A stretch of DNA of 25,952 nucleotides from Entophlyctis helioformis (lineage: Eukaryota; Chytridiomycota; Chytridiomycetes; Chytridiales; Chytriomycetaceae): positions 1-25,952 of the forward strand of contig JAHLKH010000272.1 of assembly GCA_025526915.1 (NCBI GenBank), written 5' to 3'. The translations under genes and the position numbers were made by a program. Under the pieces are notes generated by a model. That model worked only from the letters and a program-made list of their open reading frames with translations. It was not told the origin of the DNA and did no database searches. Below, piece by piece: positions 1-24,583 of this stretch (position 1 is the first letter of the stretch; every line of letters begins with the position of its first letter).

Positions 1-997
1 ACGACTTGTAGCCCAGATACGCGGCGGAGAACCTGCGCGGTGCCAAACAGATGCGTTGCACAGACGCCCACGAGCCCGTGTCAGCAAGCCGTGTGTGCGT
101 GGGCATCTGCAAGGCATCGACCAACACGTATGCATTGTGTGCGACGGAGATCTTGGCCGACAGACAGACACACAAAAGGACGTACCAGAAGGTTGTGAGG
201 CCGGCAAAGAAGAGAGCGCCGAGCAGGAACCAGAAGAGGAAGAAGCCGGCAATGGCGAGGAGCGATCCCTGCACGATGGCAACACCAGTGCCTGTGTTGC
301 GCGACGGTCGGGTCAGCGCAAGTACGTCGTCAGGCGACTCGTTAGACTTTGCCGTCGGCTGATGAGCTGAGCCGCTCTCACGGGAGCAGCGCACGGCGAC
401 GGGAGAAACCGTTGCGGCGCGTCGCAGGGGCACAGTGCAGGCCCCCGCCACCCGTGTAATGCGGGCGGGCGGGCGGGCGGCCGGTTGAGAGCGGGCGGGC
501 GGGCCAATGCGGATGGCGCATCCAGCAGCAGCAGCAGCGGCAGCAAGGGCAAGAAGGCGGCAGTTGAACTCACCGGCAGTGCCGAGCACGATGGCGCCGG
601 ACGTGAGGCCAAAGGCAGCAAACGTGCCGAGGGGAATGCGGAGAACAGGACGATGGCGACGAGGAAGGCCTGTTGGTGGTGGCATGAATGGGGCGGCAGA
701 TGCGGGGGCGGCAGATGCGGGGCGGCAGACAGAGCGTGAGACAGGACGTGAGACAGAGCGTGAGACAGCTGGGCAACAACAACGACTGCACAGAGCAGCA
801 ACAACAGCAACAACAACGGCGACGACGACTGCGCACCATCAGAGGCGGGTAGCGCTTGAGCACGGCCTGGGTGTACTTGAGCGAGGCGATGGCAGCCTGG
901 CGGGCCTGCTCGAGGCAGGGCCGACCTTCTGCTGGGCAGAGTGCGACCAGGTGGCCACGGAGATGAGGGCGGACTGGGGCTTGGGGAGAATGGCCAT
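1..997 (-). CDS. Promethin/LDAF1-like lipid-droplet membrane protein (partial, C-terminus off left edge)
   Basis: Exons on the minus strand are read as 997-837, 669-574, 366-186 and 32-1, with GT-AG introns between them. The product starts MAILPKPQSALISVATW, runs through an amphipathic stretch (CLEQARQAAIASLKYTQ), then hydrophobic hairpins (AFLVAIVLFSA, PLGTFAAFGLTSGAIVLG) and, after a polar exon, SLLAIAGFFLFWFLLGALFF followed by WFSAAYLGYK. This order, an amphipathic helix followed by paired membrane hairpins with a (V/I)(Q/E)GSLLA motif, resembles promethin/LDAF1 and yeast LDO16 proteins, which work with seipin at ER-lipid droplet contacts. The family call is by pattern only; another small hairpin membrane protein is possible. 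Two one-base frame breaks occur (near 922-930, and near 642-650 between FSA and PLGTF); one added base repairs each. The start is the first ATG of the conserved frame. Confidence 0.45.
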
Positions 998-1105
998 TGG
1001 GAAGCTAAGAGGTGCCTGCAGGCGCAGCAGATGGGCGGTCAGCATGCGTGCCGGCCATTCGAGGATCTGCCACGTAGTCCAACGTACGTTGTTTGGTTTA
1101 GAGCC

Positions 1106-1116
1106 AAGTTGCCGCC
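1106..1116 (+). repeat. Left copy of 11-bp flanking direct repeat (candidate target-site duplication)
   Basis: AAGTTGCCGCC lies immediately outside (overlapping by 2 bp) the left inverted repeat. The same 11 bases recur in the same orientation at 10818-10828, just outside the right inverted repeat. Flanking direct repeats of 8-11 bp are typical of Mutator-like insertions; this is inference from position and identity. Confidence 0.5.
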
Positions 1117-1135
1117 CGGTTCTCATACCATTACC
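1115..1135 (+). repeat. Left terminal inverted repeat (imperfect, 21 bp)
   Basis: The 21 bases run from CCCG through TCATAC to ATTACC. They match the reverse complement of 10794-10814 at 17 of 21 positions without gaps. Both copies keep CCCG, TCATAC and ATTACC. The pair encloses the FEN1-Fanzor gene and nothing else. Confidence 0.5.
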
Positions 1136-1136
1136 C

Positions 1137-1192
1137 CTGGTGGAATATTCCTGATTGGTCAATTCTGGTGGAATCGCTGTGATTGGTCGATC
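1137..1192 (+). repeat. Two 28-bp tandem units with inverted CCAAT boxes
   Basis: Units 1137-1164 and 1165-1192 both begin CTGGTGGAAT and both contain TGATTGGTC, the reverse of a CCAAT box. They lie just inside the left inverted repeat and about 290 bp upstream of the FEN1-Fanzor start. They may be promoter elements or subterminal transposase-binding repeats. Confidence 0.5.
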
Positions 1193-1483
1193 TAGAGAGC
1201 CCTTGCACAGTGCAGACACTGCGTGATGCGAGCACAGCAACGACAGTGGTGCAGGCAGCAGCGCCTGCTGTCTCGCTGGGCCGTGCGTGTGTGTCCTCCA
1301 TGAATAAAGAGGGGCGAATGCATAGTCATGTGCAACGCTCTCTCTCTCTCTGAGGAGCATGCCATTCCACACACAGACCAGTGCTCCATGCATTGCTGCC
1401 AACCATCAGTCTGATATTACGAGAGCAGCTTGCCCGTAAAACGACCGACACCAACACACACAACAACAAACCAACGAGCACAC

Positions 1484-3388
1484 ATGGGAGTCGTCGACAG
1501 TCTCCCCACCATCGACAAGAGAGGTGGTGTCAAGACGTACAAAGCAGACACCCCTCTGCCCACTGCCATTCAGGCCATTGCCCAGCAGCAGCCAGATGCA
1601 GCAGCAGCAGCAGCAGCAGCAGCCGACTCGGAGCCCATCAGCTGCATCATCCATGTCGACATCCTTTGCCTGCTCTACGGCGATATCATCAGAGCAGCAG
1701 CCGCAAAGCCGCCCCAGTCTGACAATGACTGGAGGCTGCTACTCGAGCCGCTCATCAGCAGCCTCGCCGCAGCCATTGGACAGCTGCACACAGTCCAGCT
1801 GCACGTTGACGGCTCGCAGCTTGACACTGGCACCAAGGCTGCCTATGCCAGGCGGGCCTGGGCGGCATTGGAGGCGGCATCCTTTCTCATGGCTGAGGCA
1901 GTCAAGCGAAATGCCGGCCAGAAGAGCGGCAAGCTCTTGAGGTGTGCCACTTGCTGCTGTTGATCTGCATGCTGTACTGACTGAATGCCATTCCAGAAAC
2001 GAGATGCAGCGCCTGCAGAAGGCATACCCCCTCACACGCGAGCGCAAGGCAGCCATCTCGAAGGCCCTGGGCAGTCTTCTCAGATACTTCAAAGGCGGGT
2101 CGTCTGTGTGCCTTTGCGAGAATGAGGCGGATGTTTGCATTGCACGCCATTCCCGCGAAGCAAGGTTGGTCGGCCTTCTGCATGCTTCTAGAATCCATGG
2201 CTCACGCGCCTTCTTGACAGCAATGTGCCAGTCATTGTCATCAGTGGCGACTCCGATCTGGTGTTCCACTGTGCCGGCTATTGCCCTGTCCTGCTGCTGC
2301 AACTGCGCAGTGGGCAGATCAATAGAATGCGATCCTACAATCACCATGGGATTGCCTCCATTGCAGCCGCCTTAGGCTTGCCAGACATTCCCTTTGTCTG
2401 CCAGTTGGTGGCCGCAATGGCGAGCAATGAATACTTTCATTGTGTTGGGATTGGTAGGTTGGCTTGCCTGCTTTGCATTTTTGGATGTCATGCACTGCGA
2501 CCTTGACTTACTCGTGATGCTGCGATGTGGACTTGAAAGGGATTGTCACGGCTGCAAAGTGCATCATGGCATGCATTCGGTTGGAGGCAGAGCAGCTGGG
2601 TATCTCTGTCGCGGATGTCTGTGAATGCCTCCAAGACCCCGACATTGCCAGGATGTTTGTGCATGTCATCAAGATTGCGTTCATGTGGCAGATGTACAAG
2701 ATCGGCGGCAAGCCTCTTGCTCAGTCATTCAGCAATGCCTTCGCGGTGTTTCTCAACCGTGACGAGAGAGGAGCCGATATTGGAGAGATCACAGCCCCAG
2801 CATGTGGCCATTATGCCAGTGTGTTTGCAGGACAGATGCGGCAGTAAGTCTTGGTTTGGATGCACTTGGACAGCATGGCATTGACATGAATGCATGCACC
2901 ATCCAATGGCAACAGCATCACTGCCAACAGGACCATCTCGCCCCAAAACAGGTAGGCACGGCTGCAATCTCTGCAGGATTCTTGTGGCACTGACTCTGAT
3001 GGATGCCACTGGCAGATCTGCCTCTGCATGCACGGCCTACAGCGACTGCTGCTTGAGCCACACGGCACAGCAGCTGAAGGGAAATGCCAGTGGTGCGGTT
3101 TGGCACATCACACGGGACGCAGTCACAGAGCTCGCCAACCACACTGTCAGCACAAGGCGGATGGACGGCGTTTTTGGCGAATTCAATGGCTGCCGTGTCG
3201 TGCTTGGCTGCATCCTCCGGTGCACAGCAGATCAGCTTGCCAATGACAGCATCAACAGCCGCGACATTCTTGCTGATATCTGCGAGAATGCAAGCAAGCA
3301 GCTGCTCCAGGCTGTGCACGAGAAGGATCTCGCTACAAAAGGATATGAGATACTCAGCCCAGCTGAGCAGAGCCTGTTACACGCCTTT
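1484..3388 (+). other. FEN1/XPG (PIN-like) 5'-nuclease domain of the fusion
   Basis: Family signatures appear in order. MGVVDSLPTI is the N-terminal MGI-x-GL type start. HVDILCLLYG carries D59 (FEN1 D34). LHVDGSQLDTGTK carries D109 (FEN1 D86, the VFDGxPPxxK motif). CENEADVCIAR carries E194 and E196 with the E-x-E spacing of FEN1 E158/E160. VISGDSDLVF carries D219 and D221 (FEN1 D179/D181). MASNEYFHCVGIG aligns with the LGSDY...GIG helix-two-turn-helix entrance but has Asn278 where FEN1 has D233. FEN1/XPG enzymes cut DNA flaps and bubbles using two metal ions held by these acids. Six of the seven acids are present, so activity is plausible, perhaps altered at the second metal. A poly-Ala run (~39-47) interrupts the N-terminus. 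Confidence 0.75.
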
Positions 3389-6300
3389 GTGAGTTTTGGG
3401 TGGCTTGGATGCGTGTCTTGACTGTCCACTGCATGCTGTTGCTGATTTTGAGCATGGCTGACTTGATCCATCACTGGGTGAGCAGATGGTGATCCTGAGA
3501 CTGCAGGAACGGCTCAAGAGGTATCCAGGCATCGCATGTGCACCATTCAGGCGTTCAAGGAAGCCAGGTTCGCTCTGCATTTGTTTGGCACAGTGCGACC
3601 TTGTGTATTCACAATCAATCACGGCATTCTTCTGGCAGGCAACCGCAAGGCTAAACAGCACCGCAGAAAGAGCACACGGATCGCGACTCGAAAGGCTGTC
3701 GCTGCCATTTGCAAACAGGCCATAGATACGCTGAATCTCTTGGAATGCCAAAAGAAACACAGCCCGGACGACTTCAAGCCGCTGGCACTTTCTGAGCAGT
3801 ATCAACAAGCCACAGACACACTGACACTGATCATTGACAGGGCTCCAGTGCGTCTTTGCATTTCTATGCTCTGTTTGCATGTGGCGGCTTGATGCACCTG
3901 CTCATGCTTTGACTTGACAGGTCGGCAAGCCACCGAAAGTGCCAAAGATGCTGCTGCCATCTCCAGCCGCAGCTGATGGCACAGATCGCGACAAGATCCT
4001 CTACATTGATGTGCTTCAAGACACAAAGACAACCGTGAGTTGAACTGCAGGCTTGTGATCATGAGCATCTTGTGCATATTCAGAATGCACGCCTAAGATT
4101 GCATCCAAACACGGCAGGAGCCATACCTTGTCACACTGGCCAGACAGGCTGTATTCAAGAAGGAGCGAGAAGAGCGTGCAGAGAAGGCCAAGGCAGATGA
4201 GATCATCAAGGAGCTCAAGAAGGATGCAAGCAAGCAAGCCCGCCAGGCTCAATCTGAGGATGAGACACGGGCGTAAGTGGCATATGGCATGTCGCGTGCC
4301 TTGATTGTGCTTGCTGACATGCATTCTGCTGGCAGATACGCATTTCATGCAAGACGCACCTTGCACAATGAGCTTGTCTGGATGGGCGACTACAAACAAG
4401 GGGCCTGCCAGACTCTTCCTGCAGCCGCCAATTTCAAAGCACCAACAGAGGAGGGCACGGAGAAAGACAAGGAGAAGGACGAGCACGAGCGCGAGCAGGA
4501 GGCACAGCAGCATCCCAAAGCACCAAAGGCTCAGACAAACACGCAGCAACATCGCCCCAATATGATTGTGGATCTGAAGGTATGGGAGTTGATCGCGATG
4601 CTGCTCTGCATGCTCGGCTTTTTGCATGCTGACAGGTGTGCAGGAGATGGTTTCAGACAATCCAGCAAGCGCAAAGTTGTTGGGCCCTCCAGCCAAACCA
4701 CCATCAGCAGAGCAAACCATCGCCATGGTCGTCCTAGCCTGCATTGCCAAGGTTTACACGTTCATCGTCGGCGCTCGGCATGTCGGGATTGTGATGCTCG
4801 GCGCTGTTCTCGAAGTACTGCTCAAGCTCGAGTCAGATGAGCCGCTGCCACTTGATTATCGCGTTTTCAAGTGGACCCGTGATGGAAAGACCAACTACTG
4901 CTTTCTTGATCGCGAGAAACTTGACCGCAAGACGGAGGCTGCGCTCTTGGCAGGATACTGTGTGCTGGAAAAGGACACCATGGTCCGGTTTATGTACGGC
5001 GTTGGTCCACATGGTTGCAAGGGCAAAATCCCTTTCTATGGGGATTCTGTGATCCTCTCAAAGGACACAGTGCTTGAGCTCTGCTCGCTCGGACACGTCA
5101 AGAAGCCCAAGCAGCCCAATGGCCCCAATGACCCTGACAGTCCTGACAGCCATGAGGACGATCGCGACCACGAGGATGATGATGATCATGATGACCACGA
5201 GGACGATGACAATCATGAGGATCACGAGGACAACGAGCAGCATGAGGATCACGAGGATGACGAGCAGCATGAGCAGCACGAGCAGCAAGCAGAAGCAGAA
5301 GCAGAAGCAGCAGCAGTCATTCCAACTGCCAATCAACTCCTCACAGCACTGACCAGCAGCAGATCCGGTGGCGAGACGTCTGTGGCATGTCTCCTACGCC
5401 ACATTGTCACGATTGTTGGCAATGGTCGCATGGCAAAGCCGCGATCATATATGGACACCACCAACACATGGCTGGTCACCGTCATGCAACTGATTGTTCA
5501 CCGTAACTGGACGCGGCGCATGGTGCACGCCAATGCAGGCAAGGTGCGTGCAGACATGGCTGATGCTGACATGATGGGCATGGATATGATGGATGCTGAC
5601 AAGATGGACGCGATCCAGACAAGCGCGATCCAGACAGATTTGGACAAGGCAGTCCTGCCATGCAAGCTGGCTGTTGGTCTGTGTGGGAAAGCGGCCAATG
5701 ACATCTACAGCTACTTGGCCCAAGATATCTGCACCATGCTGGCAGTGCATGTCATCTCGAACCAGTCGATGCTCGTGCTTGCTGCTGCCCACCAGCTGAT
5801 GCCCGGCGCATCAAAGGAGGAGGTCGTGGCATCAGTCGCGGCCATGACCAAAGCCATTGAGGATGCCATGCCACTGGCCGCCAAGGACGCGGCACCACTG
5901 GTCGCTGAGGACGCCATGCCACTGGCCGCCAAGGATGCCCCATCGCTGGCCGATCTTGACACTGCACCACAAGCCACTCTGGATGCTGCACCTCCTGCGG
6001 CAGGTCGCAAGAGGGCCCTGTCTAGCTCTTCGTCGCCCACCGATTGCACCGCGACCAAGAAGCCATGTGGCGAGAGGGACGAGGCCACCACAGACGCGGC
6101 ATCCAGCACACCTTCAGACACAGAGGGCATAGCCATTGCTGGGATCCCCCAACAGCTGGTCAGGCTTGCGACGATCTTGCTCAACAAGTCTGTCAGAGTT
6201 CCTGCTCGAGTGCAGCGAAGGCACAGGGAACTGCGGGTCTGAGGCACAGACAAAAGGAAGAGGAGCTGTCAGGCGACAGTGTCTGTGGCAGGCAATTGAA

Positions 6301-9300
6301 TGTGTATTCTAAGAAGTACCTGAGGCACAGACAAAAGGAAGAGGAGCTGTCAGGCGACAGTGTCTGTGGCAGGCAATTGAATAGAACAGCAAGGGAAGGG
6401 CAGAGACGCGAGACACAGAATTGGAAAAGCCAACAGACGATAATCTAACACCCCCCCTAGCCGAGGAGGCCAAGAGGACCCAAGGCGGTAGAAGAAGAGA
6501 AAAATTTTAAGCCTCGTCATCCCCCTGATGATCCGCGGAGGACGTCAAAAGCCTTGAGCATGGGTGGGCAGAGAAGAAGACGCAGTAGACTGAGCAGTGG
6601 TCGCTGGGCTGTGCAGGATGCGATCAGGGCGGTGGTTGACGCAGCAAAAAATCGACCAATCAGAGACAAGATGTCAAGAAAGAGGATCGGAGAAATTGAC
6701 CAATCAGCAACGAGATGTCAAGGAAGTGGATCGGAGACGCGTTGTGGGCGAAGGGCGAGATGTTTGAGCAGATCTGAAGGTGCGAGACAACAAAGAGAGA
6801 GAGATGGTGGACGCCGAGCGCAACGAGAAGGACGTTGAGGACGGTGTGGAGGGCCGGAGAACCGGTAGGCACTGAGCGCGCCGAGAAGGACGACGAGAAC
6901 AGTGTAGGGACTGGCGAACCAGTAGGTGCCGCAAGCGGCGAGGAGGATGTAGTAAAGGTGGACTGGCGACGCGGCAGGCCGAGCAGTGGTCGCTGGCTGT
7001 GCTGGGTGCGATCCGGATGGTGGAGGAGTGTGATGTGGGGGCTGGAGACGCGTCAGGCTGAGCAGTGGTCGCGGTGGAAATTGACCAATCGGAGACGAGA
7101 TGTCAAGAAAGAGGATCGGAGAAATTGACCAATCAGCAACGAGATGTCAAGGAAGTGGATCGGAGACGCGTTGTGGGCGAATGGCACGATGTTTGAGCAG
7201 ATCTGAAGGTGCGAGACAACAAAGAGAGAGAGATGGTGGACGCCGAGCGCAACGAGAAGGACGTTGAGGACGGTGTGGAGGGCCGGAGAACCGGTAGGCA
7301 CTGAGCTCGACGAGAAGGACGACGAGGGCAGTGTGGGGGCTGGAAGACCAGTGGACGCCGAGCGCAACGAGAAGGACGTTGAGAACGGTGTAGAGGGCCG
7401 GAGAACCGGTAGGCACTGAGCTCGACGAGAAGGACGACGAGGGCAGTGTGGGGGCTGGAGGACCAGTGGACACCAAACGCAACGAGAAGGACGTTGAGAA
7501 CGGTGTGGAGGGCCGGAGAACCGGTAGGCACTGAGCTCGACGAGAAGGACGACGAGGGCAGTGTGGGGGCTGGAAGACCAGTGGACGCCGAGCGCAACGA
7601 GAAGGACGTTGAGAACGGTGTAGAGGGCCGGAGAACCGGTAGGCACTGAGCTTGACGAGAAGGACGACGAGGGCAGTGTGGGGGCTGGAAGACCAGTAGG
7701 CGTCGCGAGCGACGAGGAGGATGTCAGAAGGGATGTGAGGGCCAGGCGGGTGCCGCGAGCGGCGAGATTGCTGTTTCTAGGGCTGTTCTTGTCAGAGTTC
7801 CTGCTCGAGTGCAGCGAAGGCACAGGGAACTGCGGGTCTGAGGCACAGACAAAAGGAAGAGGAGCTGTCAGGCGACAGTGTCTGTGGCAGGCAATTGAAT
7901 GTGTATTCTAAGAAGTACCTGAGGCACAGACAAAAGGAAGAGGAGCTGTCAGGCGACAGTGTCTGTGGCAGGCAATTGAATAGAACAGCAAGGGAAGGGC
8001 AGAGACGCGAGACACAGAATTGGAAAAGCCAACAGACGATAATCTAACAAAGTCGCTGTCGGAAATAGGCAAGTTCTACTGGCTGCGCAAGCTGGCCGGC
8101 GAAACAGTGATCAAATTATGCCCTGAGGCGGCGAATCGGGACCCGTTTGTTCATATCACCGAGACCATTCTGTTTTGGTCGGTGATAGGGAACCCAAAGG
8201 ATCGCAAGCCAACCAAGAACAACGCGGCATTGCAGGCTTTGCAAAAGCGTCTCTTGGCTGCGATCAGCAGTAGGTCGCACTTGGTTATGCCATGCTTACA
8301 TGATTTGATACTTACAAACCACTCTTCTCAAAGAGCCTGGCTTGCAAGCCTTGAATCTTGCGTCATCCAACAAGGACATACAAGCCGCTTTCAGCTCAAG
8401 CCGCGAGGATTGCGTTCTCGACATTCTCCTCCCCGGACTCGCCTCGGATACACGACGCTTCCAGACGCCTGCAGACGCTAAGGTCCAGATGGACGCGGCT
8501 GCCAAGGCCAGAGCAGACGCCATTGCCGATGCGACTCTTGAGGCCAAGAGACTCCTTCTGGTTGGCAAGGTGCGCGAGGATTACATCCAGGCTGCGATCA
8601 AAGCCCTGCCCCCAGCGCGACCAACCAAGGCTGTCAGACTAGGCAGCATCAAGACCGATGGATACAGCGTCTCTCAGCTGACTCTGGACTTTCGCACAGA
8701 CCGTCCAGAGTCGCCTCGCAGTATGTGGCGCACTTGAATGCGATGGTGCACACATTGGTTCTGACATCCGCCTTGATCTGCAGGTCCCAACGCGGCGTCT
8801 TCAGCCCAGCAACTCAGTCTTGCTGGTGATGCTCATGATCACATGGACGTCACATGTGAGTTGCTGTACCAATCCAGACGCGCACTTGTTGACCACACCG
8901 ACTGACATGCCATCCACAGCCACCGATCCAGCCGACCCATCAGCCACCAAGCCAAAAGCACCCAATCCTGTAAGCCACTTGCATGCCAACCTCGCGCATT
9001 GGTGCACATGCACTGCACATTCCTCACTCATGTCATGGCACGACAGGCCCAGTGCAACTTTTACGCCTCGCAGCGACTGCGTGACATCATCAACGCCAAC
9101 AATCTGTTCACTGACCAAGGCTACCAGTCTGTTCGTGTTGTCAGCTTTGATTGGGGCAAGCGGTACCTGTATGGCGCGTCCAGCATCTTGGTCGACCTCA
9201 GAGACTTTTCGTATACGCTCGAGTCCAACTATGTGCTCTCCTCTGGCGTATTTCATGCTGAGCGTGACCTTCAGCGGTGGTATGCATGCAATGACTCTGC

Positions 9301-10656
9301 CACATGCACTCTTGACCAGATCAACTCACAGTGCCCGTCTCTTGCGCCAGGTTTGATGACCGACTTGCCAAGGCTGCTGACATCCAGGCGGCCATTGCAT
9401 TTGTTGTCGGTGCCCCTCCACATTTCCTCTTCCATTTCTCTTTTCGTACTTTCCATTTTGGGTTGTCCAGCTTTTCAAATACTAGCTCCGTTTCCAGTTG
9501 CTGCCGTTTACCTTCAGTACCCGTCCGCTACAGCATTCAAGACAGCAAAGCATGCCGATCCAAACGTCAAGCCTGGCGAGAGAGCCTTTTGGGATCTGCG
9601 CTGCCATGCTTACTGCACACCATTCCTGAATGCACGGGTACGTTTTCTCTATATCTGGATGTCCATTGACACAGCCGCCATGCTGCTTGATCGCCTGCTG
9701 ATTGCACTGGACGGCATGGCATGGCATGGCATTCCACAGAAGGTCAAGGCCAAGCGGTTCACCATGTGCAGCAACAGCACGTCTATTCGCGGAAACGCTC
9801 TTGAGGGCATCATGAAGCTGGCAGGATCGACCACTGGAAAGCGCGCATCTGCTGCATCTCAAGGCCGCTGTGACAAGCCAACAGAGAAGGACATTCCCGT
9901 TGTGTGGGCATTTGGCATCGACTTTACTGGCCAAGGTGGCCGGCACGCTGTGTTTGAGAAGTTTCTCATCAGGCATCTGCGGTCGTCTGGATATGCCTAT
10001 GTGCGTCTGATGCCACACTGTCCATCCATCCATCCATCTATCCATCTGTGCACCAACTGACCACACGATCATGCACACACACACATACACAGATCTACCG
10101 CTGCAACGAGAACCTGACCAGCCAGATGTGCCCGCAGTGCAAGCAGCGGATCCCAGACAATAACCGCACCAACCTGCGACGCTACGAGTGCACAGACTGC
10201 AAGACCGTCTACCACCGAGACGTGCTTGGAGCCACCAACATCGGGATGGTCGCACTGTGGCATCTGCTCTTTGGACACCGGCCGCTCTACTTGACGCACA
10301 CCAAAGCCGACAGCAATCCAGCCACGACAGAGTACCTCAAAAGCATCGCAAGAATGCATACTGCCATCAAGCTGCGTGCACGAGATGCTCCGCCTGTTGT
10401 CCCACAGCCTCAAACGCGGAAACACTTCAAGTCGCATGTGGCCTCATGGGATCAGATCAGCCTGTCGACCAGCAGCGTTCAAGACGTGCTGTACAGCAGC
10501 GTTCAAGACACGGACCATCCGTCGTCCAGCTGCGACCAGCACGCAGACAGCCTGCCCTCAAGTCACTTGACCTGCATCCCACACAGTGACTTGTTTGACT
10601 ACCAACTCTTTGAATCGGGGCACCTCCCGATCGACCTAACGGGTCACTTTTTCTAA
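1484..10656 (+). CDS. FEN1/XPG nuclease-Fanzor (TnpB-like RNA-guided nuclease) fusion, split by an LTR element
   Basis: Twenty exons are read: 1484-1941, 1997-2164, 2221-2453, 2540-2843, 2916-2951, 3016-3388, 3486-3567, 3639-3847, 3921-4034, 4118-4272, 4336-4579, 4644-6190 joined to 8055-8269 across the LTR element, 8334-8720, 8784-8855, 8920-8969, 9047-9279, 9351-9409, 9471-9637, 9740-10000 and 10093-10656. Every junction keeps frame and the total, 5,931 nt, is a multiple of three (about 1,976 residues). Most introns are 55-100 bp with a CTGAC- or TTGAC-like branch motif. Residues 1-300 match FEN1/XPG. Residues 850-1300 are a low-complexity acidic and repetitive linker. Residues ~1550-1976 match Fanzor. 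A basic cluster (GRKRAL...TKKPC, near 6005-6070) could be a nuclear signal. The weakest exon choices are 7 (3486-3567) and 17-19 (9351-10000). As the sequence stands, the LTR insertion truncates the product after ~1,307 residues plus some LTR-encoded ones, so the Fanzor part is probably not made from this copy. Two separate genes are less likely because no stop or start separates the halves. Confidence 0.72.
5143..5310 (+). repeat. His/Asp/Glu-rich low-complexity segment
   Basis: Within exon 12 the frame encodes a long run of H, E, D and Q (units such as HEDHED, EDDEQHE, EQHEQQ) that ends in AEAEAEAAA. It is a disordered acidic linker between the FEN1 half and the Fanzor half. The clustered histidines could bind metal; that is speculation. 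The DNA repeats short GAxCAC/GAGGA units. Confidence 0.7.
5857..6000 (+). repeat. Six octapeptide (24-bp) repeats in the linker
   Basis: Six consecutive 8-residue units are encoded: DAMPLAAK, DAAPLVAE, DAMPLAAK, DAPSLADL, DTAPQATL, DAAPPAAG. The DNA repeats with the same 24-bp period. The units look like a flexible, alanine/proline-rich spacer grown by slippage, sitting ~190 bp upstream of the LTR insertion point. Confidence 0.75.
6186..6190 (+). repeat. Left target-site duplication AAGTC of the LTR element
   Basis: AAGTC directly precedes the left LTR and recurs directly after the right LTR at 8050-8054. Five-base duplications are the norm for LTR-retrotransposon integrases. Joining 6190 to 8055 gives codons AAC AAG TCG CTG in the frame of both flanking coding parts. 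Confidence 0.93.
6191..6450 (-). repeat. LTR copy adjoining the polypurine tract (3' LTR in element orientation)
   Basis: This copy matches 7790-8049 base for base as read. Inside it a 62-bp unit occurs twice (6240-6301 and 6321-6382), separated by 19 bp. Each unit contains the small inverted repeat CTGTC-AGGC-GACAG. Confidence 0.93.
6451..6457 (-). promoter_or_regulatory. Polypurine tract
   Basis: The plus strand reads CCCCCCCTAG right after the LTR. On the minus strand this is CTAGGGGGGG immediately upstream of TGTTAG, the normal position for plus-strand DNA priming in LTR elements. No comparable purine tract precedes the other LTR on the plus strand, which fixes the orientation. Confidence 0.7.
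6585..7309. repeat. ~429-bp-offset duplication inside the LTR element
   Basis: Sequence around 6653-6880 recurs at about 7082-7309 with few differences, including the GAGACGCGTTGTGGGCGAA and GGCCGGAGAACCGGTAGGC stretches. GACCAATC occurs near 6654, 6698, 7083 and 7127. No coding function is evident. Confidence 0.75.
7236..7695. repeat. 115-bp tandem repeat, about four copies, inside the LTR element
   Basis: Copies starting GTGGACGCCGAGCGCAACGA (one variant reads GTGGACACCAAACGC) begin at 7236, 7351, 7466 and 7581, exactly 115 bp apart. Because 115 is not a multiple of three and the unit lacks minus-strand stops, overlapping minus-strand frames stay open and give repetitive Ser/Pro/Arg-rich open frames (for example 7053-7823). 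They have no gag-like features, so I regard them as non-coding. Confidence 0.85.
7790..8049 (-). repeat. LTR copy at the 5' end in element orientation
   Basis: Second copy of the 260-bp terminal repeat, followed by AAGTC (8050-8054). The internal 62-bp units are present here too, at a constant 1,599-bp offset from the first LTR. Confidence 0.93.
8050..8054 (+). repeat. Right target-site duplication AAGTC of the LTR element
   Basis: Second copy of the 5-bp duplication. The coding frame of the host gene resumes at 8055 (NKS|LSEIGKFYW). Confidence 0.93.
9047..10656 (+). other. Fanzor/TnpB core: RuvC-I, RuvC-II region, zinc ribbon, RuvC-III
   Basis: RuvC-I is VVSFDWGKRYLYGA, with D1584 at 9149-9151. 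After helical exons comes VVWAFGIDFTGQGG (near 9905-9935), which sits where TnpB carries the RuvC-II glutamate but has Asp (9920-9922). Then follow CNENLTSQMCPQC, a 16-residue loop, CTDC, and VYHRDVLGATNI. The zinc ribbon is CX2C-X16-CX2C, with cysteine codons at 10129, 10138, 10189 and 10198. RuvC-III Asp is at 10219-10221. The Glu before TS (10108-10110) occupies the relocated catalytic position reported for Fanzors. The family uses an RNA copied from the element end (omega-RNA) to cut matching DNA. The C-terminal ~140 residues are Ser/His-rich and look disordered. Confidence 0.8.
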
Positions 10657-10793
10657 CGATAAAGGTGAGCACTTCGTTGGATGTGCCTCGCCCGCCTGTC
10701 GTCGCATGCTCGTTGCTGACTCGAACCTTCAATCACGTGATATGTGGGCATCTATTCAACGCCTCTTGCGACGAATTTAACTCCAAAATCCTT

Positions 10794-10814
10794 GGTAATT
10801 GTATGAATATCGGG
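10794..10814 (-). repeat. Right terminal inverted repeat (imperfect, 21 bp)
   Basis: Reads GGTAAT...GTATGA...CGGG on the plus strand, the inverted partner of 1115-1135 with four mismatches. Three bases (CCG) separate it from the right direct repeat. Confidence 0.5.
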
Positions 10815-10817
10815 CCG

Positions 10818-10828
10818 AAGTTGCCGCC
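10818..10828 (+). repeat. Right copy of 11-bp flanking direct repeat
   Basis: AAGTTGCCGCC, identical to 1106-1116 and in the same orientation, 19 bp before the Exo70 ATG. Confidence 0.5.
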
Positions 10829-10846
10829 ACAATATAACCCATCGAA

Positions 10847-13778
10847 ATGGTTCTCTTGAACACGGCCCTCGCGTACGTTGCTGTACCGTGCCGTGACATG
10901 CCGTGCCATTGGCAGCGAGGCGGGCTTGACGCTGACCGCCAGGACCGTCGGGGCTGCAACAGACATCCCTTCTCGGAAGAGCAGGCGGAGCGCAAGCGCG
11001 AGCTTGAGCGGAAGCTGGCATATGACACGGAGAAGCTGAATCTGCTCGAGACGAGTCTGGACAAGACCAACCGACTCACAGAGCAGATGGTGTGTCGCCG
11101 TCTGTTCAGGAGTAACATCGCCAGCGGCCGTTGGTGGCCGTGCGCTGCTGTGCCCTCTCTGACACTGCCACGCCTGTCTGCCATGCCTGCCACAACAACA
11201 ACAACAAACCACGCCGCGTTCATCTCGGAGCCAGCAAGCCATGCTCGCGTCCTTTGACAATCGCCTGTCCAAACTCGAAAACTTTATCCTGCCCATCCAC
11301 AGGTCGACCCAGAAACTCACCCGTCTGCACACGAGTAAGCTGCGCACAGCCTTTGTAAACTCGCCACGGCCACGATGCTGACAGCACGAAACTAGACATT
11401 GATCTGGCTCTGGCCCAGATCGACAACTTCACGGGCACGTTTGATGTCATCAAGCAGCACGAGGCCGTCGTGACCAAAGGGTGCGTGGTCGCGCGCGTCT
11501 CGCTGATTGTCCCCTTGAGCCTGACCTTTTCTGTCCACGTGGTGGGCTGGCAGACCGCGCGGCATCGAACTGCAGACGTATCTGGTGTCGATCGCCAAGC
11601 TCAAGGAATCTCTGCACAGCCTCGAAGCGGCAAAGTACAAGTCGTCGGAGCGCACTGTGCAGGGACTGGTGAGTGGCACGCGGATGTGTGCTGGTGCTGT
11701 GTGCTGATGCCAGTCTGACATGCTCGTATGTGGCCGCGTGTTTTAGAAAGCAACGCTGTGGAACGGTATCCGCCAGCTGGACGAAATGTTTACAGCCACG
11801 CTCCAGGCCGCCAGCGATGCCATTGACCCGGCCGTGTATCTGTCAGACGGCACGTCACCACGACTGTTGTGTCTCTGCCTGGCAACGCTCCATGTCGCCG
11901 CAACTGACACTGCGCCAACATGGCATGGCATGGCATGGTATGGGTTTACAGACGAGTCGCCGGCTATCCCTGACGCCAAGCTGGTTGAGCTGCAGAACCT
12001 TGCCAATGCACTCGCAGACTCGCTGGTGGAGATTGGGCCCATCTCGGCATTCATCAAGCAGTACGAGGACGTGCGGTCGGCGCATCTGATCAAGGTCATG
12101 GCAGGCGTCAGCCAGAGCGCCAAAGATCAGGAACTCAAGAGCGTCAACCAACGCGGCACGTACCAGAAAGGATCCAGTCTGCTCGTTCCGTACGGCAAAA
12201 CACTCTTGCGAGCCCTCAATGTGCGTGCGTCTATCTATCCATCCACTGGTTGTCTGGTTTGCAAGTTGGCTGCTTCTATGCCAATCGTGGCACGACTGGC
12301 TGACATGGACGACCGCCTAGAGCGAGCATCTCCTGCACCTGAAAATCGTGCCCAAGCACCATGCGGTCACCACATTCGTGGCGACCATCAGCGCGGCGGT
12401 TGATGGCTTCCTGGACGCGTGCGAGACTATGCTCAATCGCGTGCGCCGCAACATCCAACGCCGCGAGATCAACGACGTGTACATGCTGATTGATGTCTGG
12501 GACGACCTGTCCGACATGTTTTCGCGCCATGCTGCCCTGCAGGCTGTGAGTGTCATGTGCTGTGTGAATATGTGGTTGGCACGTGGTTCTGATGAGCGTG
12601 CACTGATTGCGCGTGGTGATGGTGACGTGAGTGTAGTACTGTGGGAAGAAGGGGCACGAGATTGATGTCGTGCTGGGTAATGCCAGCGCGACTGTCATCA
12701 GCTACTTCAAGGAGATTTACGACGAGTTCAAGGCGAGACACGCGTGGACCTGTGCATACATCCCTGGCTTTGGCACGCGCGCTGACGATGCTGTGGATGA
12801 ACTCGCTGCAGACGGACTCGGAAAAGAAGCAGTCTGCTTTGTCTGTCGATGGCACTGTCCACGAAACAACAAGCATGGTGTGGTGGTCATGAGGGAGTCA
12901 GATGCTCGCTGATGGTGTGTGCGTTGGGGACTCACGAGCGTGCATGGCAACGACAGACCATGAACACACTCAAGCGTCTGCTCGACTTTTCTCATGCCAT
13001 GGACCACATGATTATCAACAGCCAGGTACCGCGTCATTGCCATCAGCCATCACCTGCCGGCCCTTGCAGGCTGACAAACCACCCAACACGGCACAGGGCA
13101 AGACAGGCTCGTTCCCCGCCACGTCCTTCCCAGACTTTATATCCAAGATGGTCGAGTCGCTGCTCACCGACCTGGAGACAAAGTCCAAGGGCTACAAGCG
13201 ACCGACGCTCACGACGCTCTTCCTCCTCAACAACTACCACTACATCCTCAAGAGCATCAAGGGCACCAAGTCGCTCGCCGAGAGCATCGGCCCAGACGTC
13301 CTCGACTCGCTCGAAAAGAGCATCAAGCGCCAGTTGGACGTGTACCGCAACTCGTGGATGCCCATCATCGAGCACCTGATGGACACGACCAAGATCTCGG
13401 ACCAGGGCAAGATCGTCACGAGTCTGAGCAAGGCGCAGCGCGAGACCATCAAGGACAAGTTCAAGGCGTTCAATAAGGATTTCGACGAGCTGTTCCAGAC
13501 CCAGAAGGCGTACGCCATTCCCGATGTCGAGCTGCGTGCACAGGTCGTTAAGGAGGTCAAGCAGGTGCTGCTTCCCATGTACAACCGCTTCCATGACAGG
13601 CGAGTCGGGCATCCTTGTACCCCCTCTGCTGTTGTGATGTCATACGTGCACTCACACGCGTCGACACGCACACAGGTACACGGAAGTCGAGTTTTCCAAG
13701 AACAAGGAAAAGTACATCAAGTACGACAAGGACGCGCTCGCCCAAACACTCGACAAGTTTTTCGATGCGTCGTCGTGA
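10847..13778 (+). CDS. EXO70: Exocyst complex component Exo70
   Basis: Many short introns separate exons whose peptides match Exo70 along its whole length. An N-terminal coiled coil (ERKRELERKLAYDTEKLNLL) is followed by NIDLALAQIDNFTG, then a helical-rod core with FLLNNYHYILKSIKG and DGTVHETTSMTMNTLKRLLDF. The C-terminus PMYNRFHDRYTEVEFSKNKE runs into YIKYDKDALAQTLDKFFD and a TGA at 13776-13778. Exo70 binds PI(4,5)P2 and Rho-type GTPases and helps tether secretory vesicles to the plasma membrane. The first exon (MVLLNTALA) does not join cleanly to the coiled-coil frame, so the start or an early splice is uncertain, or there is a frame break near 10917-10985. One intron (12733-12811) appears to use a GC donor. 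The start lies 19 bp from the edge of the candidate mobile element, so the insertion may have displaced its promoter. Confidence 0.9.
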
Positions 13779-13889: not shown

Positions 13890-16800
13890 TCACCGTACAC
13901 GGCCTGCACTCATTTTGCCGATTTCGTGGTTGAGGGCATGGACGTCTTGCATGATGAGGTGGCGGTTATTGACGACAGAGAGCGTCTGGTCAAGCGGGAG
14001 CCTTTCGCGCGGCTTGGCTGTCTTGTTTGCGGCGGAAACAGCGGCATGGCTGCTCACCGTGGGCGTAAAGCCGTTCGAGCCGGATCCGACAATCGGTGCA
14101 TGCTCGCGTCGCGGCGGTCGTTTCAGCGGCGACCCCTGCGATGTGGTCGTGGTGGAAGTCGACTGCCGCGACACGGACCGTTGCTGTGTTTGTTGCTCTT
14201 GCCGTTGGCGTGACGCTGGCGGTGCTGCTGACGGTGCCTTGGGCTGTTTCGACGGCGACAAGGACTGACTGTGCGGTTTGGCTGCCGTTGAACGCGACGG
14301 TGATGCGGCATGGCTGGCGGACGGCGGCAAGGGGCGTGCCGTCCTGGCCGGCGATGGTTTGGCCGTGTAGGACGTGGTGGTTAGTCGACCACCCGCTCCC
14401 GCCGCCCGCTGTGCAGACGAGACTGCGGGCAGCTTTCCCGGGCTTGCAGCAGACGGCCCAGGCGACCGAGCGGCCGACAAGCCCTTGCGCGGTGACGACG
14501 GCAGCGCGACTTTATCGCGTCCGCGTGCACGCGAGGTTGCGGTTGCACGCGCGGCTACGTGGGCACCACTCGGCTGAACAGACACGGCCGGCAGATGCTG
14601 TGCAGGCGTGTCAGACCGCTTGAGAGTATTCACACGATGCGTGGCCATGGTAGGCGGGCCCGGCTCGTACATGGACCCTGTCCCTGCCGCTGTCCTGCCG
14701 CCGGTCGCCGACTTTCGGCCCGACGGCTGGCGTTTCCCTGTTGCCGACGACGCGACGGACGACCGCCCGCCCGCTTGCCCGCCTGTCCTGCTGCTCGCTT
14801 GCCCCGCCATCGGATGGCGCGATGATGGCGGTACGGGCTGTGGCGTGATGGGCGGGAACATGGGCGTGCCGCCGTAATGCGATGGGTATCCGCCGTTGTG
14901 GCCGGCGTGACCGGCGTTGCTGTGCATGGACGTTGTATCCGAGAAGCCGCCATCCATGTGTCCGGCATGCATTGCGTGGGTGTTGCTTGCTGCCTGCAGT
15001 CTGCCGTGTCCCTGCAAGTCGTGCACTGTATGCGACCCGGCGATCCCATGCAGTTCGAGCGGGTCATGCGCCATGTACATCTGCTGCTGCTGTTGCTGTT
15101 GCTGCTGCTGCATCTGCTGCATGTGGTGCTGCATGTGCTGTTGTGGATGTAGCTGTGGCTGAACAGGCGGGAACAGCGCCGTGCCCACAGACGCCACGGA
15201 TGCCGTATCGCCCTTCATGCCGCCACTTCCACCGGTAGCGATATACTTGCGATCGCCGTTGAGCGCACCACGCAACGCCTGGTTCTCCTTCTTCAGCCCC
15301 GCAATCTCGCGCTTGAGGATCAGCACCATCTCTTCGCGGGCATCCAGCCGCACGACGGGCTTGTTCACAATCCGACGCGCCTTGGACGCGTACCGCAGCG
15401 TCTTGATGGTTTCGGCCATGTTGGCCAGCCCGGGCGACACGCAGGCGATCATGAGAGCGAGGCCGTTGCCGCCGAGCGAGTCGGCGAGCAGCTTGGTGAG
15501 CTTGGAGTCGCGGAACGGGATGTGGCCCTGGCGTTTGCGCGAGTCGGAGAGCGCCGTGATGCAGAGGCCGAGCGTCAGCAGGCTCTTGTTGATACTGAGC
15601 GCCTCGGTGAAGGTGTCACCGGTCGCTTTGGACTCTTTGACCTTTTCGCTTCCTGCGATTGTGCGAGAGCGTGCGAGAGTGTGTGAGTGTGTGAGAGCGT
15701 GTTTGTGGGTCTGGGAAAGCGGTGGCAGGGCAATGCGCCATGCACAAGACCGCACCTGCCAGATCAACAAAGCTGATCTTTCCGTGTGCCTTGACTGGCC
15801 GGCCTTCGTCCTTGTCCATGGACACGGTCTCCAAGTAGATCGTGAGAACGCTATGGCTGCGCGACGAGTGCTCGTTCATGTCATGCGACGCCGTCGTGCG
15901 GTTTCTCAATCCTGTCCACCAACCAGCCGGTCATTCATCCAGTCAGCCAACACTCCGCGCATGTACCACGACGGGAGGACTGCTTGCCTTCTTCGAGAAC
16001 GGCGAGTGCATCGTCAAGGACTTCGCAGTCGACAATAAACAGATTCTCGACATAAAAGCCGCGTTCGGCGCTCCACCGGACCGGCAGCGTTGTGTTGGGC
16101 GGATTCAGCAGATCCTGGACCTGCACAGCCAGCCATCAGCCTCACCGCGACCACTCAACAACGCATGCAACTCTCGCAACCCACATGCTCATTGTAAATC
16201 TCGAGATACGACGCCTGGATACGGATGCCGACGAGCACGCCCGCAGCCCGCAGCGTCGCCACATGGCCAAACAGGAAATTCAGCGCGCGCGGCACAATAC
16301 CGACCGTGTCCGGCGTCTGCGGGCCGTCTGGTCCCGTGATCGTAAACGTCTTGCCGCTGCCCGTCTGCCCAAACGCGAATATCGTCGCGGCGTAGCCATT
16401 GAGCGCCTGGTTCACGAGATCGCGGATACCGGACAGGTCGAAAAAGAGCGACTGCGCCGTGTGCGCGTCGTGGACTTGGTCAAATGTCATGCTTGTCATT
16501 CGGCCGTCTGGCATATACACCTGTGTATGCAGTGTCAGCATGCATGTGCGCGATACTGCGATACTGCGACAATGCGACTCTGCGACCAAGACTTGCTATG
16601 GCTGATCGGCCGTCTTCGCTTGCTTGGACAATCTTGTACTGGCTGTCTCGCGTCGACTCGGTCTGTGCCGGCGGCCGTATTCTGTTCCATCGGCGTCCAA
16701 GCCCACCACGGGTGTTAGTTGGTACTGACACGCGCCATGTGTGACGCACGCACAGTGACGCCAGCTGCCGGTGCGTACCTGACAATCGTGCGCACCTGGC

Positions 16801-22404: not shown

Positions 22405-22678
22405 GTGGGGCAGTTGGACAGGCAAGTTTGAGACCGGGTTCGCTGCCTTGGTCAAGGCAGAGTCACGTGAGAGCACACGTGACCCGCAGTTGGAAAAGCA
22501 GCGTTGCGAACTGCCCCACGGATCTGCCCCGACAGACCACGGCCGAGACTGCATGTGTGTGGATGCCTGCATGTGTGTGGATGCCTGCCTGCTGTGTGTG
22601 CATGCGTGTGTCTGCTGTGACTGACTACAAGGCCGTGGCTGCCCACCACCACAACCACGACTAGCCCGCCAGCCCGCC
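22405..22678. promoter_or_regulatory. Bidirectional promoter interval between citrate-synthase-family gene and Elp4
   Basis: 274 bp separate two divergent ATGs. It contains two copies of a TGTGTGTGGATGCCTGC unit (around 22554-22588) and two CACGTGA-like or ACACGTGAC sites near 22465-22492 (E-box-like). Both genes should be driven from here. Confidence 0.5.
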
Positions 22679-24583
22679 ATGTCGTTTCGCAGGCACGGCA
22701 GCAGCCGCTTGAATGCACCATCGCCCGGTGCTGGCCGTGCACAGGCGGGTGCTCAAGCATCCAGTGCAGCCGGTGCATCCACAGCAGCCAGCACGTCAAT
22801 GCCAACGCCAACGTCTCCAGCAGCCAGTGCACCACCGCCCTCGCCCAGGCTGCAGGCTGCCGGCGCCGCCCTGCCCGGCACGCGCATCTCGGCCAACAGC
22901 CGCACGACGCTGACGTCCTCGGGCGTGTCGTCGCTCGACGACGTGCTCGGCGGCGGCCTGCCCCTGGGCTCGCTGCTGCTGCTGCGCGAAGACCGCTTCT
23001 CGGGCTACGCCGCCCTGCTGCTCAAGTACTTTGCCGCCCAGGCCGTCGCATCGGCCCACGCCCTGACCCTCGCCTCGGCCGACCTGCCGCTCCCGCTGGA
23101 CGACTGGCTGGCCGACCTCATGGCCGTCGTGCCGGCCTCGTCGTCGTCGTCGTCTGCTGCGTCTGCGTCTACTGCTGCGTCTGCTGCCCTCGACGACACC
23201 GACGACGCTGATGCCGCAGACGGCCACTCGCCGTCGTCCGCGTCTGGCAGATCTGCGTCGCTCTTGATCCCGTCGGCGTCGGGCGCCATCCTCCCTTCGA
23301 CGGCCCCGTCCGTTGCCGGCCGCTCCCGCGCACTGGGATCGCTGCGCTCGGCTGCTCAACACCACCACAGCAACCACCACAGCAACCACCACAGCAACCA
23401 GCACAGCCAGATCACCTGCAACAACCACAACAACTACAACAACAGCAACCACAACAACCACAACAACCACAACAGCCTGCCGCAGACGATCGCATGACTA
23501 TTGCTTGGCGATACCAGTCGCTGCCGCAGTTCTCGTCGTCTTTGTCGTCTGGCACTCCGTCTGCAACGTCTCGCCAAGGTACATGCTCCTCTGCCCTCTG
23601 CTCAGGCTGCCGCGCTGGCAGACGTGTACTCACTCGCGTCGCTGCACAGGCCAGACCTACTGCCACACGTTCGACATCACAAAGCGCATTGCGCCTGAGC
23701 TGCTTGCGGCCGTTCCCATCACCCTACACGACCCTCTCTCGCTCACATCTGGCCAGCAGCCCGTCTACAGATCGCTGCTCAACAAGATTCGCACACAGAT
23801 TGCAGACGGCGGCTTTAGGTAAGCGGTGCGTGTGTGTGTCTGAGCCTTGGACAGGACTGACGCGACTGGTGCGACTGGTGCGACTGGCATCGGCCTTGCA
23901 GTCCGCAGGCGAGCACAGACTCGGAGACGTCCCGCACCGTGCTGCGCATCGCCATCCACTCACTCGCATCGCCGGGCTGGTCGGCGTCCGCAGCCGGCCC
24001 CGAGCCGTCGATGCAGGACGTGTGCCTGTTTCTGCACGGGCTCAAGGCGGCGGTGCGCGGCACGCACGCGGTGTGCATGGTGACGGTGCCGGCGCATCTG
24101 TTTGACGACTTCCACGGCATGAACGCGCACACGCACCCGCTCATGCGGCGGCTCGAGCACATTGCGGACGCGGTGCTGGAGATTGAGTCGTTTGCCGGGT
24201 CGCCGCGGCCGGCCAACGCGTCGTACACGTCCGAGTACAGCGGGCTGGTGCACCCGCGCCGCGTGTTCTCGCTGCAGTCGCACGCAGACACGACGCGGCT
24301 CACGCCCGTGCAGCTCGCCTCGCTCGCCTTCAAGGTGCGGCGGAAGCGCTTCTCGATCGAGACGTTCCACCTGCCGCCCGACGTTGGCGGCGACGGCCCC
24401 TCCTCGTCTGCATCTGCATCTGCGTCGTCGTCGTCGTCGTCGTTGCAGGGCACTGGCACTGGCACTGGCACTGCGACAAGGACCGCACCACGCGCAGGGC
24501 CGCGGGCGGGAGCGTCTGCAGGCGCCAAGGCGGCGAGCGCGTCGTGCCACGCGGCAGACGCACGCAACCCGCTCGACTTTTGA
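22679..24583 (+). CDS. ELP4: Elongator complex protein 4 (Elp4/PAXNEB)
   Basis: Exons are read as 22679-23578, 23650-23818 and 23902-24583, with GT-AG introns of 71 and 83 bp. Matching segments are GVSSLDDVLGGGLPLGSLLLLRED followed by LLLKYFAAQAV (RecA-like core), MTIAWRYQSLPQF, TYCHTFDITKRI, LRIAIHSLASPGW, and the C-terminal FKVRRKRFSIETFHLPPD. Elp4 forms the Elp4-5-6 hexameric ring of Elongator, needed for wobble-uridine modification of tRNA. The protein is enlarged by a Ser/Ala/Asp-rich insert (residues ~155-205) and an Asn/His/Gln/Pro-rich stretch. The frame changes by one base somewhere in that CAA/CCA repeat (about 23350-23480), so the repeat is either mis-sequenced or hides a small intron. 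The stop is followed at once by AATAAA. Confidence 0.92.
23350..23490 (+). repeat. CAA/CCA/CAC low-complexity tract in Elp4
   Basis: Imperfect CAACCACCACAG units are open in all three frames (Asn/His, Thr, or Gln/Pro rich). The Gln/Pro frame leads directly into ...DDRMTIAWRYQ, whereas the upstream exon enters in the Asn/His frame. Confidence 0.8.

Follow-up and report, generated by a model that had tools for sequence, protein, structure and literature searches.

Fanzors have already been found inside many kinds of transposon (PMC3627910), and SPu-1, a Fanzor1 element of Spizellomyces punctatus, is about 2.1 kb long, carries one open reading frame (ORF) of 633 amino acids and shows putative TA duplications (PMC3627910), its nuclease being SpuFz1 (PMC10432273). 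Here we analyze a stretch of 25,952 nucleotides from Entophlyctis helioformis (contig JAHLKH010000272.1, positions 1 to 25,952; hereafter the window), in which end motifs and the alignment of related copies delimit one copy of a terminal inverted repeat (TIR) DNA transposon, at positions 1116-10816, with a gene that occupies most of its interior. Like SPu-1, the element is a DNA transposon of a chytrid, is bounded by inverted repeats and codes for a TnpB-type RuvC protein; unlike SPu-1, it is about 7-9 kb long, has 18 introns and longer duplications, and appears to encode a protein of some 1,777-1,950 amino acids with a fused N-terminal nuclease module. The reading that we favor, with a probability of roughly one half, is that of a TIR transposon family with one recognized gene, coding for a single protein in which a FEN/XPG-like module, a middle region and a TnpB/Fanzor-like RuvC module follow one another, and which would act by the mechanism proposed below.

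A nuclease that we take to be of XPG type is carried by the AcademX transposons, for which we know of no Fanzor-type partner. These elements resemble that of E. helioformis in being DNA transposons with an accessory nuclease and differ from it in having duplications of 3-4 bp (PMC10045372). A targeted literature search found no description of a FEN1/XPG-Fanzor or TnpB-flap endonuclease fusion, in agreement with a preliminary description of this locus, PMC3627910, searched for FEN1, XPG and fusion, contains none of these terms, and searches on Academ and XPG, on XPG in DNA transposon superfamilies or on Entophlyctis helioformis returned, among the papers listed, nothing relevant. Among 7,993 candidates no full-length relative from elsewhere was found at E≤1e-3 by a search that reaches relatives sharing short exact words; searches with the separate parts returned eight proteins for the Fanzor part and three for the FEN part, all from E. 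helioformis itself, and two scans of viral contigs found no relatives, so that more distant fusions may exist elsewhere.

An inverted-repeat transposon family

The ends of the element recur throughout the 29.57 Mb of genome searched, in which the window is contig C272. The left end motif (20 bp, up to two mismatches) is present at 90 places and the right end motif (26 bp, up to three mismatches) at 164, against none for the reversed-pattern control of either, and by eye each end is an imperfect inverted repeat of the other. The window copy lies between 10-bp direct repeats of AAGTTGCCGC, and its fixed inverted-repeat ends and target duplication identify it as a TIR DNA transposon. Flanking direct repeats of 7-11 bp were also found, in a count made without a shuffled control, at 18 of 32 end pairs (16 of 30 once duplicates are removed), and the family occupies well over a hundred places in this one fungal genome. 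In addition, after removal of three duplicates and of two flanks that continue as repeat sequence, 16 of the 27 remaining right flanks have AAG within their first eight bases, whereas 2,000 control draws averaged 1.9 and never exceeded 9.

When the 90 left ends were paired with the 100 right ends among the matches listed (of 164), at least 43 pairs were obtained: 33 enclose matches to both the FEN and the Fanzor modules, five to FEN only, two to Fanzor only and three to neither. These pairs, together with the end motifs and the flanking repeats, bear out the placement in a mobile element that the preliminary description supposed. Three short end pairs (987, 1,050 and 2,167 bp) retain part of the 3' coding region, and two of these three derivatives have identical flanks, so that two distinct sites are represented. 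For comparisons between copies, 20 relatives were picked non-randomly from the match lists, giving 21 sequences with that of the window; 20 copies align within about 1116-10816, the more diverged ones only partly. No transposase domain was detected with Pfam, either in the whole protein (E≤1) or in a 934-residue middle part (E≤10), the latter search also yielding no family for the middle region, and inspection by eye of the 100 listed right ends (of 164) revealed none placed in both orientations around another gene. A separate sequence of 7.5 kb, L078 (G000:C25:58000-65700), has the ends of the family, matches to the gene near both ends only, and an interior with ORFs of unrelated repeated sequence.

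The two nuclease-like modules

The N-terminal module, searched alone, is matched by the Pfam family XPG_I_2 in four of four divergent members (best E 2.9e-4, the first member falling under the cut-off). A profile of this part, built from ten copies, four of them left after filtering, was compared with the host EXO1, FEN1 and XPG proteins, whose names were assigned from motifs, and with two archaeal FEN1 proteins; it scored 31.75 (P 0.0011), the maximum of 200 column shuffles being 22.6, and 28.2 with the three host proteins alone, for which 60 shuffles reached 25.3 at most. The alignment extends across 109 columns (225 with looser settings) and is collinear with the catalytic motifs. Six acids (D56, D106, E193, D195, D216 and D218) are invariant in the four subfamily representatives, and the seventh, D276, is an aspartate in 10 of 12 displayed rows and was unread in L022; we take the catalytic roles of all seven to be those of their counterparts in FEN1 and EXO1. 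As in FEN1, EXO1 and XPG, the seventh acid is followed by a putative helical DNA-binding stretch; the GIG/helix-two-turn-helix (H2TH)-like segment after NDY also aligns with FEN1 and EXO1. Unlike the cellular members of the group, the module of the element is a remote relative (16-18% identity) that XPG_I does not detect.

A number of results weigh against this kinship. FAD_binding_4 is a competing weak Pfam match in two of the four members and DUF7742 in one; the full protein has no XPG match at E≤1 in Pfam, and XPG_I, run over the genome, finds three host genes and none of the element copies. The profile match carries an HH probability of 21%, a PDB profile search of the FEN part returned nothing at E≤10, and AlphaFold2, given an alignment of five rows, produced no usable fold (predicted local distance difference test, pLDDT, 35.7). 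The seventh position is moreover a glutamate in the window copy, and a search of PHROGs with the FEN part gave nothing informative. Taken as a whole, the N-terminal half is likely to be a remote FEN/XPG relative, as judged from its sequence; the FEN1/XPG half of the preliminary description survives as remote homology, seen with XPG_I_2 and the profile.

Kinship with flap nucleases leaves the substrate of the module to be considered. With a fold of the FEN/XPG type, it could still act on RNA, for instance by trimming a guide RNA, or simply bind, in which case the fusion would combine a guide-maturing nuclease with a cutter. Such a role is in keeping with a best Pfam match to XPG_I_2 rather than to the classical XPG_I, the wider group of the former presumably including proteins of RNA metabolism, and with the remoteness of the homology to DNA flap nucleases. 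However, both the catalytic acids and the stretch after NDY line up with FEN1 and EXO1, and we regard an RNA-acting module as unlikely. In the same genome, an apparent host FEN1 gene has a Fanzor-like exon some 1 kb downstream of it, on the opposite strand (G000:C2:291198-291499 and C2:292503-292769; L037).

The C-terminal module is matched by PF07282 (TNB zinc ribbon) with an E-value of 1.7e-9 and 38.2 bits, against a cut-off of 26.3, and by the NCBIfam models guided_TnpB and IS200_TnpB in three of three members, below their curated whole-protein cut-offs (best E for guided_TnpB, 5.9e-7). Matches in PDB profiles are weak (E 0.4-1) and comprise an AI-designed RNA-guided nuclease, the TnpB-like L79 and Cas-phi. 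The D-E-D triad is conserved, with D1433, E1619 and D1656 (numbering of copy L027) as the RuvC-I, II and III acids, and the glutamate is repositioned to six residues before the zinc-finger CxxC (C1626), an arrangement that, like the zinc ribbon and the RuvC-III aspartate, is shared with the Ealt TnpB/Fanzor clades (Yoon et al., PMC10711439). Unlike these clades, the element has DWG instead of DPG at RuvC-I, as read in 12 displayed rows of 21, and 183 residues between RuvC-I and the glutamate, outside the 120-160 pattern of that report (PMC10711439). The DPG departure counts against the reading that we favor, as does the right-end RNA, which in six copies folds no better than shuffled sequences (z -1.3 to +1.1). 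The C-terminal half is, from its motifs, a TnpB/Fanzor relative, and the Fanzor named in the preliminary description is upheld by the zinc ribbon and the glutamate and not by the DPG fingerprint.

The departure from DPG, together with the folding result, also favors a C-terminal module that works without a guide, the fused protein being the element's own transposase or a target binder. The Pfam searches reported above left the element without a transposase domain, and the excess of AAG in the right flanks would also fit a cutter with a target motif of its own. Against this, the module retains its zinc ribbon and all three RuvC acids, and Fanzors are often carried by elements that belong to various transposase types, some of which are devoid of the transposase (PMC3627910); a guide-free protein therefore seems to us quite improbable.

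One reading frame and two later insertions

The gene extends from an ATG at 1484 to a stop at 10656, with FEN-like motifs near the start and HRDVLGATNI near the end, just as the preliminary description had it. Exons 1-12 (1484-6190) are joined by GT-AG introns into one open frame, which resumes after an inserted long terminal repeat (LTR) element and stays open, in the register that joins them, through the exons that follow; with this and a second insert set aside, the window gene comprises by arithmetic 19 exons and 1,951 codons plus stop (Table 1). Of the original proposal the open joined frame holds good, but not the twenty exons and 1,977 codons, two of the presumed introns being transposon insertions.

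The association of the two halves is not peculiar to the window. With exon 3 of the FEN part and the final exon of the Fanzor part as queries, and the best 150 or so scored matches of each, at least 146 FEN and at least 181 Fanzor places were obtained after merging. For at least 96 of the 146 listed FEN places a Fanzor place lies downstream on the same strand, at 4.9-12.9 kb (median 5.8 kb); none lies upstream on the same strand, five lie on the opposite strand, and the remaining 50 FEN places are unlinked among the matches listed. A one-off join or an assembly artefact was accordingly rejected, the linkage recurring at this number of places. Spliced alignment of the L027 protein to DNA is near full-length in 20 of the 21 sequences (L015 is without the start), at protein identities of 96-100%, 59-70% and 45-47%, and most of the 18 intron positions recur across copies, the program having also put spurious introns in variable stretches. 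L027 itself is open for 1,777 codons in 19 exons. The bridging exon, 1.4-1.8 kb long, is fully open in 11 of the 20 copies with measurable bounds, including copies whose protein is about 46% identical, and the chance of such openness in that one frame is 5e-8 or less per copy; the window copy, with its insertion, is among the nine that are not open, and L020 is without bounds.

It might nonetheless be argued that two adjacent genes in one transposon code for two proteins and that the join is an error of the gene model. The annotated protein pieces are short (187-397 amino acids) and, under strict stitching, a single sequence out of 21 is open end to end, L014 remaining open to residue 1,530 and the others having earlier stops or shifts, some of which may be alignment errors. 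The interrupted frames of 20 of 21 copies and the purely predicted single mRNA count against our own reading as well, expression as a single protein being a prediction from open frames. Two separate genes are nevertheless disfavored, mainly because the bridging exon is open in 11 of 20 copies, and shared introns run throughout both halves; we hold this arrangement to be very improbable. The joined frame is present in divergent copies, and the spliced alignments, the bridging exon and the linkage support the earlier claim that a single reading frame connects both halves.

Two later insertions interrupt the gene of the window copy. The larger carries two identical LTRs of 260 bp, which recur in the genome at 40 matches, some of them partial and two being its own LTRs, and its interior consists mostly of tandem repeats. 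With paired LTRs, TG...CA ends and a 5-bp duplication it can be classed from sequence as a putative non-autonomous LTR element, similar to a terminal-repeat retrotransposon in miniature (TRIM), and it is probably a recent insertion because its two LTRs are identical. The smaller, solo-LTR-like insert has 14 genome matches including itself, most of them partial. All 20 relatives have an uninterrupted junction at its site, and that of the larger insert is recognizably uninterrupted by a short test in seven of 20, the rest having either diverged too far at that point or given no match. A lone gene of about twenty exons, with these stretches of 1.9 kb and 136 nucleotides as true introns, is extremely improbable: frame-keeping GT...AG pairs can indeed be placed near both insert edges, but the inserts have LTR-type ends and duplications, the LTR recurs in the genome and relatives are without both inserts. 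The two stretches were rejected as introns on these grounds, and may at most be spliced out accidentally in the window copy. L021 (G000:C18:100900-110899) carries the same transposon insertion as window positions 359-12053, with flanks about 95% alike and without either LTR-type insert, and is thus a duplicated or allelic locus. Beside the transposon, the window contains a host kinesin motor gene (13893-15875, minus strand; E 3.2e-33) and a host PAXNEB gene (22628-24580, plus strand).

Table 1. Features of the transposon copy in the window and of the insertions that it carries
Feature	Position	Strand	Exons, details or basis
Left flanking direct repeat AAGTTGCCGC (target duplication)	1106..1115	.	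direct-repeat comparison of flanks
Whole transposon copy	1116..10816	+	9.7 kb including two insertions, ~7.7 kb without; end motifs, copy alignment
Left terminal motif, imperfect inverted repeat of right end	1116..1135	+	genome motif count
FEN/XPG-like module, exons 1-4	1484..2843	+	1484-1941, 1997-2164, 2221-2453, 2540-2843
Middle region, exons 5-11	2916..4579	+	2916-2951, 3016-3388, 3486-3567, 3639-3847, 3921-4034, 4118-4272, 4336-4579
Bridging exon 12, split by LTR element	4644..8269	+	4644-6190 and 8055-8269
Inserted 1,859-bp LTR element	6191..8049	+	LTRs 6191-6450, 7790-8049; ends TG...CA; duplication AAGTC at 6186-6190, 8050-8054
Exons leading into Fanzor-like module	8334..8969	+	8334-8720, 8784-8855, 8920-8969
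RuvC-I exon (SFDWG)	9047..9279	+	exon model and copy alignment
Exon split by second insert	9351..9637	+	9351-9401 and 9538-9637
Solo-LTR-like insert, 131 bp	9402..9532	+	ends TG...CA; duplication GCATT at 9397-9401, 9533-9537
RuvC-II region exon (FGIDFTGQGG)	9740..10000	+	exon model and copy alignment
Last exon: repositioned glutamate NENLTSQMCPQC, zinc ribbon, RuvC-III (YHRDVLGATNI), stop	10093..10656	+	
Right terminal motif	10791..10816	+	genome motif count
Right flanking direct repeat AAGTTGCCGC	10818..10827	.	direct-repeat comparison of flanks

Selection, possible exchange and a proposed mechanism

The ratio of non-synonymous to synonymous divergence (dN/dS) was estimated for 12 pairs of copies and, these being decayed multicopy elements, is to be read as a rough guide. 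It amounts to 0.28-0.47 for the FEN part in the seven pairs with a FEN dS of at least 0.6, and to 0.42-0.49 for the middle part in the eight pairs with a middle dS of at least 0.58. The Fanzor segment has a dS of 0.07-0.33 in all 12 pairs, with ratios of 0.39-0.81, and the introns of the 3' third are 84-99% identical in the four diverged pairs examined. Between subfamilies, window positions 9047-10816 and their counterparts, introns included, are much more alike than the FEN and middle parts. Given these introns and the low Fanzor dS, the 3' third looks as if it has been homogenized or exchanged between lineages, beyond what selection on the protein alone would produce.

In the remainder of the gene the exons have changed faster than the introns, silent sites included. 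When L027 is compared with the window, identity at fourfold-degenerate sites is 63% for the FEN part and 53% for the middle part, that of the interleaved introns 89% and 82%, respectively, and that of the 250 nucleotides before the start codon 92%. Of ten pairs compared, introns are the more alike in all ten for the FEN part and, for the middle, in nine, with one tie. This pattern may reflect RNA-silencing pressure on mature transcripts or cDNA-mediated exchange.

For the favored single protein, all that concerns RNA, catalysis and movement is what we infer from these data. The RuvC module would bind RNA transcribed from the right end of the element and, guided by it, would cut an allele or vacated site devoid of the element, repair from the element-bearing copy then restoring the element at the cut site. 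A copy-back logic of this kind has been proposed for TnpB. The FEN module, in turn, would trim flaps or the displaced strand at the cut or R-loop and so bias repair toward the element, while excision and staggered insertion would most likely depend on a transposase acting in trans, because no transposase domain was found. As a tentative elaboration, a two-nuclease polypeptide, made of a guided RuvC cutter and a flap nuclease that biases repair, may have had its cutter third exchanged or homogenized between diverged lineages.

The biological role of eukaryotic Fanzors has been described as unknown (PMC10432273). If the reading favored here is true, a flap-handling partner covalently attached in nature would give a direct indication of the events that follow the Fanzor cut, and the fusion would show a naturally occurring way of attaching an end-processing enzyme to an RNA-guided cutter.

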